A stretch of DNA of 29,709 bases from positions 1-29,709 of the forward strand of contig JADHWK010000027.1 of assembly GCA_016783505.1 (NCBI GenBank), given 5' to 3'. A model generated the notes under the pieces. It made no database searches and was not told the DNA's origin. It was given only the letters and a program-made list of their open reading frames with translations. The translations under genes and the position numbers were made by a program. Of this stretch, positions 26,441 through 28,817 are shown piece after piece (the first letter of the stretch is position 1; the number at the start of each line of letters is the position of its first letter). The stretch comes from Candidatus Zhuqueibacterota bacterium (GTDB taxonomy: Bacteria > BS750m-G25).

Positions 26441-27184
26441 ATGAGAGAATCGAATTTATCAGAAGTTGTTGATTTAACCCAGAGATATCTATCCCAACTG
26501 AAGGAACTGGGTGAGGAGGAAATCTTCCTGAACCGCGACTTAATTGCTAGCCTATCACACCTAAGACCCGAGTCGGCTTCCGACCTTTCTAAATTTTACC
26601 GTCAAATCAAGGATTGCCAACTATGTCCCCTGAGTAGAACGAGAACCAACTTAGTCTTTGGAGTCGGTAATCCGGCGGCGGGGATGGTTCTGGTTGGGGA
26701 GGCCCCGGGCCGGGATGAAGATTTACAGGGAGAGCCCTTTGTGGGACGGGCGGGCCAATTATTGAACAAGATTTTGAAGGCCATTGATTTTGAACGGGCC
26801 GATGTCTATATTTGTAATATTCTAAAATGCCGCCCCCCGGGAAATCGGGATCCCCTGCCTGATGAGATCGAGGCCTGTAAGCCCTATTTGCTGCGACAAC
26901 TGGAAATGATCAAGCCCCAGGTAATCCTGGTTCTGGGACGGGTGGCCGCCCAGGTTCTGCTTAAAACCAGTTCGGATTTAGGTAAGTTAAGGGGTAGAAT
27001 TCATCTATTCGGGAACAGTAAGCTGGTGGTGACCTACCATCCGGCAGCCCTATTGCGCAATCCGCGCTTGAAGCGCCCAGCCTGGGAGGATGTGCAACTG
27101 GCAAGGCGGGTTTACGACGGGATGGAACCCGAAGGGGCGGATGATGAGGAAATAAGTTTGTTCCGGCCACATAAAAATATTTAA
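26441..27184 (+). CDS. Family-4 uracil-DNA glycosylase
   Basis: 247 residues from ATG 26441; TTG 26429 or GTG 26432 would add 3-4. It excises uracil from DNA. The [4Fe-4S] ligands appear as CQLCPL, CRPPGNR and the Cys of EACKPYL. Motif A is GEAPGRDEDLQGEPFVGRAG, and motif B is VVTYHPAALLRNP. An N-terminal helical extension of about 45 residues precedes the core. The C-terminal end after EISLF (RPHKNI) differs from a second copy of this 3' end at 28692-28817, where it reads EISLFE. The present last codons may therefore have been changed by the insertion that follows. Last gene of the yicC operon. Confidence 0.93.
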   Translation: MRESNLSEVVDLTQRYLSQLKELGEEEIFLNRDLIASLSHLRPESASDLSKFYRQIKDCQLCPLSRTRTNLVFGVGNPAAGMVLVGEAPGRDEDLQGEPFVGRAGQLLNKILKAIDFERADVYICNILKCRPPGNRDPLPDEIEACKPYLLRQLEMIKPQVILVLGRVAAQVLLKTSSDLGKLRGRIHLFGNSKLVVTYHPAALLRNPRLKRPAWEDVQLARRVYDGMEPEGADDEEISLFRPHKNI

Positions 27185-27298
27185 ATACTAAACCCTGAGA
27201 TTAATTTTGTAAGGAGATTTTTAATATCAAGACACGTTCAAGTTAATAATAAGTTCGGCGCGCGGCAAAAGCAATGAGTAGAAAGCACAATCGTTACT

Positions 27299-27580
27299 AT
27301 GCAGATAAAATTTGAATGGGATACAGACAAAGCAACAAAGAATATTGAGTAACATCAGGTTTCGTTTAACGAAGCTGCAACGGTGTTTGGCGATCCGCTG
27401 TCCATGACGTTTTTTGATCCTGACCATTCGATTGACGAAAGCCGATATATCACTGTTGGGTTATCACATCTTGGAAAACTGCTCGTTGTTTCGCATACAG
27501 ATCGAGGCAACCGCATACGTATCATTAGTGCGCGAAAAACAACGCGCCGAGAGAGGAAGTTTTATGAAGAACAAAGCTGA
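27299..27580 (+). pseudogene. brnT: BrnT-family toxin gene with an in-frame stop
   Basis: The frame from ATG 27299 reads MQIKFEWDTDKATKNIE, then TAA (27350-27352), then [17 protein letters not shown] and on to [14 protein letters not shown]. This is a full-length BrnT (about 93 codons) with one nonsense codon at position 18, where the family usually has a Lys/Arg before H-x-VSFEEA. One base change (AAA to TAA) would explain it. BrnT is a RelE-like ribonuclease toxin. With the stop, the only product would start internally (GTG 27383) and lack the first strand and helix, so it is probably inactive. The brnA-like gene begins inside its 3' end (27564). Confidence 0.8.
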
Positions 27581-27800
27581 TAGGGAAATTGATGACGAGC
27601 TTCGTGCTGAGTATGATTTGTCTCAGTTAAAGGGAGGCGTCCGGGGTAAATATGTGCAGCGTTATAACGCAGGTACCAATTTGGTATTATTGGCCCCAGA
27701 CGTGGCCGAGGCTTTCCCCAGTGATGAAGCAGTGAATGAAGCTCTACGGCTGTTAATGAGAATCGCCAAGACTCAACTCAACCAAGGAGTTCACGTCTAA
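27564..27800 (+). CDS. brnA: BrnA-like antitoxin
   Basis: 78 residues: [60 protein letters not shown]. This pattern is common for the antitoxin next to BrnT. The C-terminal part looks like the ribbon-helix-helix DNA-binding domain. It starts 17 bases before the brnT stop, the usual toxin-first overlap of this system. BrnA neutralises BrnT and represses the operon. It is intact although its toxin carries a stop codon. Confidence 0.75.
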
Positions 27801-28013
27801 CATGCGATTTTAGACTGCGTTGTGGTGTGGGGATCGATTTTGTCATGGGAATAGCGTGCCTAACCCCCACTTTAACCAACAGCCCTATCGCGCGCAAATC
27901 TTTGATAGCATCGAAGGAATGGATGAGGAGCAGCTGCAAAGAGGTTGATGAGTTGAATTCATTAAATTTAACTAAATGCTGGGGATAATAATTATGGTTG
28001 AAAGGAGGAGTAA
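27801..28013. other. Spacer between the two toxin-antitoxin modules
   Basis: No recognisable gene. A 47-codon open stretch from ATG 27845 has no family pattern. The last bases carry the strong GAAAGGAGG ribosome binding site of the next gene. Confidence 0.4.
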
Positions 28014-28220
28014 ATGAACCAGTATGTGACCGATACGCGGGTGAAAAAGGGCCGGGTGGCATTGAAAGATGTACCATTTTCTGATGATAGTGAAGTCAAA
28101 GTGGTGGTGATCCCCAAAGCAAACATCTCGAAAATGTCGTTCCAGACCGTGCAAAAATTAACACAACCAATCACTGGGAATCTTTCTGATGATGTTGTGT
28201 CCGAAAGAGAGGACAGATGA
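28014..28220 (+). CDS. Probable antitoxin of the adjacent PIN toxin
   Basis: 68 residues: MNQYVTDTRVKKGRVALKDV, SEVKVVVIPKANISKMSFQTVQ, ITGNLSDDVVSEREDR. The N-terminal beta-rich half ending VKVVVIPK resembles small VapB/AbrB-like antitoxins, and the C-terminal part should wrap the toxin. Position is the best evidence: strong GGAGG before the ATG, and an ATGA overlap with the PIN-domain gene, as in vapBC operons. Confidence 0.65.
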   Translation: MNQYVTDTRVKKGRVALKDVPFSDDSEVKVVVIPKANISKMSFQTVQKLTQPITGNLSDDVVSEREDR

Positions 28221-28678
28221 ATGTTTTTGTTGACACCAGTGCCTTTGTCAAATTATATCACCACGAAGCGGGGACGGAGACGTTGTTTAATTTTCTATAC
28301 CGACACTCGGAAGATCTTATCTTGTCCATTGCTGATATTACCGTGATTGAGTTGCATTCAGCGTTTTTGCGGCGAGTTCGCATGGGTGAGATCGCTGTTC
28401 AGATAGCGCAATCCGTGTTCACCGCGGTGGACAAAGATTTAAAGTTCATCAATAGTATCGAATTAGATACACCGGCCAAGCAGATGGCAAGGAAACTGCT
28501 TGATGAAGTAGCTCCCACTAAAAATTTGCGGACGTTGGATGCCTTGCAACTTGCCGCGGCAATCTTGGAAAATCATATCTTGCCAATTGATTACTTCGTT
28601 TCGGCGGATGGGCGTTTGTTAGACATCGCTGCCGAGTATTTTGATACGTTTAATCCAGCGAAGGAGAGTCTTGTATAA
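28217..28678 (+). CDS. vapC: PIN-domain ribonuclease toxin (VapC family)
   Basis: 153 residues. The four acidic PIN positions are visible: Asp6 in VFVDTSAFVKLY, Glu in TVIELHSAFLRR (about 46), Asp in RTLDALQLAAA (about 115), and the Asp of FVSADGRLL (about 133). VapC toxins cut tRNA or rRNA and are held inactive by VapB. Nothing looks truncated, so this pair should be functional, unlike the brnT upstream. Its stop is 14 bases before the duplicated UDG 3' end. Confidence 0.88.
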   Translation: MNVFVDTSAFVKLYHHEAGTETLFNFLYRHSEDLILSIADITVIELHSAFLRRVRMGEIAVQIAQSVFTAVDKDLKFINSIELDTPAKQMARKLLDEVAPTKNLRTLDALQLAAAILENHILPIDYFVSADGRLLDIAAEYFDTFNPAKESLV

Positions 28679-28691
28679 TTTTTTGATAAAT

Positions 28692-28817
28692 ATGGCAGCC
28701 CTGCTGCGCAATCCGGGGTTGAAGCGCCCAACTTGGGAGGATGTGCAATTGGCGCGACGGGTTTATGATGGGCTGGAGCCCGAAGGGGCGGATGAGGAAA
28801 TAAGTTTGTTCGAGTAG
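28692..28817 (+). pseudogene. Second copy of the UDG 3' end
   Basis: 41 codons, MAALLRNPGLKRPTWEDVQL, ARRVYDGLEPEGADEEISLF, then E and a stop, matching the last residues of the UDG at 27043-27163. Homology begins abruptly at GGCAGCCC and stops at TTGTTC on both copies. Fourteen substitutions and one 3-base deletion separate them, so it is not a fresh tandem duplication. The fragment has no active-site motif and should be non-functional. Confidence 0.9.

Follow-up and report, generated by a model that had tools for sequence, protein, structure and literature searches.

A UDG gene with two 3′ ends

The window, i.e. the whole stretch of DNA analysed here, is one entire contig (C24; 29,709 nt) of a fragmented, metagenome-type assembly (2.51 Mb in 89 contigs, 60% complete). 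Towards its right-hand end lies a gene for a family 4 uracil-DNA glycosylase (UDG), which is followed at a distance by a second, diverged version of its own 3′ end:

26429–27184, + strand: UDG gene with a full reading frame and an odd tail, RPHKNI (PF03167, E 1.6e-39; TIGR00758, 213 bits against a cut-off of 125)
27043–27163, + strand: gene-side copy of the UDG 3′ end (sequence alignment)
28694–28811, + strand: far copy of the UDG 3′ end, then GAG TAG (sequence alignment)

Alignment confirms the diverged repeat described in the initial annotation in its coordinates and its sharp edges: 104 of 118 aligned bases are identical, with 14 substitutions and one 3-base gap, and the copies match each other at BLAST E-values of 1e-33 to 1e-37. 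A search of the 2.51-Mb assembly returned just these two copies and no third. The two tails likewise read as described, since past the common TTC the gene-side copy continues into RPHKNI and a stop, and the far copy ends cleanly (EISLFE) with a single further residue, E, before its stop. The sequence 5′ of the far copy bears no likeness to UDG. A simple tandem duplication of the UDG end was considered and rejected because the flanks of the two copies differ. Residue frequencies at three variable sites single out neither end as the native one. Both ends keep the residues DEEISLF (27144–27163 and 28791–28811), which we take to resemble a C-terminal sliding-clamp-binding motif; the final LF also occurs in the UDG of a few relatives.

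Toxin–antitoxin genes between the two ends

The interval between the copies holds four small genes or open reading frames (ORFs):

27299–27580, + strand: BrnT-type toxin gene (PF04365, E 3.5e-16, on the part after an in-frame TAA at 27350–27352, read from the sequence)
27564–27800, + strand: small ORF in the antitoxin position, matching no Pfam or NCBIfam family; putative role from position
28014–28220, + strand: small antitoxin-like ORF sharing 4 bases with the PIN gene, matching no family credibly; putative role from position
28217–28678, + strand: PIN-domain (VapC-like) toxin gene (PF01850, E 1.9e-7, 32.2 bits against a cut-off of 23.6)

The earlier description of this interval as consisting of toxin–antitoxin (TA) genes throughout is thus largely right, given the BrnT and PIN toxins and the two ORFs in antitoxin roles by position, except that about 200 bases (27801–28013) carry no assigned feature. 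The reported absence of an integrase is borne out for all ORFs of 27164–28693. A structure-based scan of the same interval returned no attC site, which sets the TA island apart from integron gene cassettes. PADLOC gave no match to a defence system, the PIN toxin was not found in the plasmids searched, and the UDG tail was not found in the viral contigs searched.

Inserted DNA between UDG and dnaB

UDG and dnaB lie within 275 nt of each other in 45 of the 47 distant-relative loci that hold both genes. These relatives span several phyla and reach no more than 69% identity even in the best-matching segment, too diverged for the UDG tail to be aligned; the two exceptions (L038 and L087) have other genes in between and no copy of the UDG end. 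Here, the distance is 2.8 kb once C24 is joined to contig C2 (see below). As dnaB directly follows UDG in distant relatives, most of this gap must be inserted DNA, in support of the original proposal that the cargo had been placed behind UDG. No second UDG end was found in 132 genomes of one phylum, 40 mixed genomes and 80 loci.

The inserted DNA extends beyond the far copy, from 28888 on, a part not seen in the initial annotation:

28888–29580, + strand: integron-cassette-like gene, first 230 codons, cut by an in-frame TGA (aligns with a 289-aa Leptospira protein)
29571–29709, + strand: contig end; the identical 139 bases also form the end of contig C2 (reverse strand), on which an attC-like site and dnaB are found
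29770–29826 of the joined C24+C2 sequence, in the reverse strand of C2: single attC-like site behind the decayed gene starting at 28888 (first noticed by eye, then found by a structure-based scan)

Because C24 and C2 have these 139 terminal bases in common, we read both as one. Past the far copy, the joined sequence then runs through the 230-codon frame, the attC-like site, dnaB, spoT, ruvX and an lnt-like gene. The Leptospira interrogans homologue (289 aa) aligns along the frame and through its TGA, and the frame resumes on C2, where its stop lies 2 bases before GGCTAAC...GTTAGGC. This site scores best of 366 kb in a looser structure-based scan that was designed to recover it after a strict attC pattern had missed it, and 197 of 200 shuffled sequences fold less well than its strand. 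A Leptospira plasmid homologue apparently has a similar layout of gene and attC-like site, as judged by eye. With an attC-like site, predicted from sequence alone, directly behind it, the gene at 28888 reads as a decayed integron cassette, and as an insertion separate from the TA island. Gene fragments resembling integron integrases, with stops or internal deletions, occur elsewhere in the genome (L147 2911–3190 and about 5300; L148 11931–12377; L149 1372–1593; L151 about 9030).

Similar arrangements elsewhere in the genome

When stretches of the genome are compared with themselves, many locus-specific direct repeats flanking short cargo appear. An arrangement like that at UDG lies behind etfB, sdhB, a cNMP-binding gene, the PEPCK gene and others; the repeats are unrelated between loci, and the copies are 8–26% diverged:

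L176: three versions of the etfB 3′ end; cargo a ParE/antitoxin pair and a ParE-like toxin
L158: end of a cNMP-binding gene; cargo a DUF5615 PIN-like toxin, then, in tandem, this intergenic region again in another version with a ParE-like toxin (21.8 bits, just below the Pfam cut-off of 23), before valS
L169: cargo an MNT/HepT pair
L205: behind a murQ-like gene; cargo BrnT (34.0 bits, just below the Pfam cut-off of 34.5) and a CopG antitoxin
L189: cargo an Eco57I-type restriction-modification gene
L224: cargo a NotI-type endonuclease and a methylase
L154, 4000–5030: two nuoM 3′ remnants, between nuoL and nuoN; cargo a DUF6883 gene
L201: sdhB end; cargo a lipoprotein-like gene

A genome-wide screen for such repeats went through five versions, the first of which used no filters. 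The second gave 16 loci here against 3 in relatives' loci, the third 39 pairs (this genome only), and the fourth 22 loci here against 5 in ten genomes (P 0.023) and 1 in relatives' loci. In its final form, the screen takes copies of 50–300 nt that lie 400–5000 nt apart, are at least 74% identical and have an ORF between them, and leaves out repeats inside genes, paralogues and multi-copy repeats. Within 1.28 Mb of this genome, 23 candidate loci passed. Ten other genomes, from different lineages and for the most part in better assemblies, gave a single locus in 0.80 Mb (P 1.4e-4), and the UDG neighbourhoods of relatives gave one in 0.83 Mb. The paralogue and interior filters, identical for both sets, were written after reading the control hits of the fourth version, which were mostly paralogues or within-gene repeats. 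The final P value is therefore optimistic, and we regard the excess of flanking-repeat insertions in this genome as likely and its size as uncertain. On reading, four of the 23 loci (L147, L150, L172 and L190) are probably something else.

By our own sorting, TA or restriction-modification genes are present in about 9 of 21 insertions. Among 20 random short ORFs used as a control, none scored above the cut-off for a TA or restriction-modification family and one scored below it; this yardstick is weak, as 11 of the 20 belong to no family at all and many are therefore probably not genes. Other repeats in this genome are of different kinds. Longer, multi-copy repeats about 1.1 kb apart surround small ORFs (L155 153–3870, L190 2104–5510, L195 215–1187) and were set aside in the screen, and two genes of the window have internal tandem repeats (1687–4725 and 13171–14060, the second with frame breaks).

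The initial annotation had suggested a site-specific element or a hot spot aimed at UDG. Site-specific elements do leave a diverged gene end in place and the old end on the far side, and integrase-like fragments are present elsewhere in this genome. Nevertheless, a degenerate site-specific integrative element that had its attachment site in the UDG 3′ end and then lost its integrase is, in our view, very unlikely: the island itself lacks an integrase, UDG is not preferred in other genomes (132 + 40 genomes, 80 loci), and the same anatomy recurs at unrelated genes with unrelated repeats. Alternatively, DNA of two strains whose gene ends had diverged could have been misjoined during assembly. 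The fragmented state of this metagenome-type assembly (89 contigs, 60% complete) would invite such errors, and a search of it for a full-length nuoM found none, while two nuoM 3′ remnants lie between nuoL and nuoN. An artefact would, however, have to explain why the inner junction (28693/28694) offers no common sequence able to mislead an assembler and why the cargo is frequently TA or restriction-modification genes, and we consider it extremely unlikely.

Substitutions between the gene ends

How the two ends came to differ can be read from the kind of substitutions between them. Under a drift model, the target is copied at insertion and most later changes fall in the useless copy (an 80:20 split is assumed), altering amino acids. 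Under a donor model, both ends were functional and diverged at an assumed dN/dS of 0.1. Of the 14 substitutions between the UDG ends, 3 change an amino acid; drift would give 8.1 such changes (P 0.001) and the donor model 3.3. Two comparisons at etfB give 4 and 3 changes, against 8.0 and 7.4 for drift (P 0.021 and 0.007) and 3.2 and 2.8 for the donor model. Conversely, sdhB, PEPCK, a transglutaminase-like gene and GT4 reject the donor model (P 0.005–0.043) and fit drift. Summed over ten comparisons, chosen by hand and not mutually independent (etfB enters two of them), 52 changes are seen against 76 for drift and 32 for the donor model, so that neither fits; a donor end that drifted later, or a mixture of mechanisms, would give such an intermediate total. 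The test went through three forms: all-neutral, half-neutral (a rough yardstick) and the drift and donor models. The half-neutral form was replaced because it assigns the useless copy fewer changes than it should have; it fits the total of 52 fairly well (about 47 expected). The P values are uncorrected for ten comparisons and three model forms, and UDG alone would survive a tenfold correction.

The UDG ends differ mostly at synonymous positions, and plain duplication followed by drift therefore fits poorly. The pattern supports, as probable, the earlier suggestion that the incoming DNA carried a diverged end of its own: one UDG end probably arrived with foreign DNA. A second, xenologous UDG gene in tandem, of which the 5′ part was deleted to leave a remnant, would also account for two ends that look evolved in functional genes. 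Yet none of the relatives examined (132 genomes of one phylum; 80 loci) has tandem UDG genes, and the same history would have to repeat independently at many loci, which makes this reading very unlikely indeed.

The substitutions also bear on insertion with long target duplication, in which the event itself copies about 120 target bases and the copies then diverge. Restriction-modification genes are known to insert with target duplications of the order of 100 bp (reviewed in PMC3874152), and insertion with long target duplication has been described in Helicobacter (PMC1643837); the Helicobacter pylori insertions are those of Nobusato et al. 2000 and Furuta et al. 2010, as cited in these two papers. 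The insertions described here are alike in having addiction-type cargo, no mobility genes and direct repeats of about 100 bases of local sequence; at UDG, these are 121 and 118 bases, in only two copies in the assembly. Two restriction-modification loci of this genome (L189 and L224) have the anatomy as well, and several loci fit drift. Unlike in those cases, the cargo here is mostly TA genes and the copies are 8–26% diverged. Whether the repeat arose by copying of the target is answered differently from locus to locus: the substitutions agree with it at other loci and oppose it at UDG and etfB, where they are too synonymous for drift. The UDG and etfB copies seem to have been diverged already on arrival, and for the TA island we hold long target duplication in its strict form to be rather unlikely.

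A possible route of insertion

We lean towards the view that the TA island arose by additive recombination between the resident gene and diverged homologous DNA, and not through an integrase. From the sequence we infer a donor, a crossover, an illegitimate join and an order of events as follows. DNA from a related lineage, with a diverged UDG 3′ end and TA genes behind it, would recombine with the resident UDG through the end of about 120 bases. The other end of the incoming DNA, which lacks homology, would be joined illegitimately inside the UDG end; alternatively, the fragment may circularise first and enter by a single crossover. As a result, UDG would keep a full frame, now with the foreign tail RPHKNI (presumably by read-through into foreign DNA), and the resident 3′ end would be pushed downstream.

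Both homology-facilitated illegitimate recombination and entry by one crossover after circularisation have been described (PMC3240628), and the former has been proposed for immunity-gene arrays in Vibrio (PMC5361080). No homology is evident at the 28693/28694 junction, and the anatomy would fit homology at one end and a non-homologous join at the other. The locus before valS (L158) lends further support: an intergenic region is present there twice in tandem, with a separate toxin gene in each version, as expected from integration of an allelic fragment. Against additive recombination stand the more diverged loci (sdhB, PEPCK and GT4), which fit drift or a mixture over the donor model. A search for ComEC in the assembly, which is 60% complete, was negative. 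An identical or similar process has probably been at work at many further sites of the genome. That the lineage has a dedicated, so far undescribed route, by which short TA and restriction-modification cassettes repeatedly enter behind housekeeping genes, each bringing or making a version of the neighbour's end of about 100 bases, with gene ends genome-wide as docking sites, is a further reading that we consider unlikely.

Two known systems resemble the proposed event. The e14 element and phage 21 integrate in icd, where the gene end is replaced by a diverged incoming version and the old end is left on the far side. The swap of a gene end for a diverged version is alike, whereas the island has no integrase or phage genes and the insertions show no preference for a single gene. 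In the type VI secretion system (T6SS) immunity-gene arrays of Vibrio cholerae (PMC5361080), an incoming module with a homologous anchor likewise displaces the old 3′ end downstream, and successive additions build up arrays. There, secretion effectors and few clusters are involved, in contrast to the many unrelated loci without such effectors here.

How chromosomal TA modules move without mobile elements is unsettled, and so is how the long target duplications around restriction-modification genes come about. A limited literature search found no paper on insertions of this type for TA modules. A genome with many such insertions makes the mechanism testable by counting: target copying predicts drift in one copy, while recombination with relatives' DNA predicts mostly synonymous differences. 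For the two genes with the best conservation among those examined, the counts speak for recombination; for more diverged genes they are not decisive. Together with like arrangements at roughly twenty other places in the genome, the UDG locus suggests that TA modules slip in repeatedly behind ordinary genes, on DNA that bears its own version of the neighbour's end.
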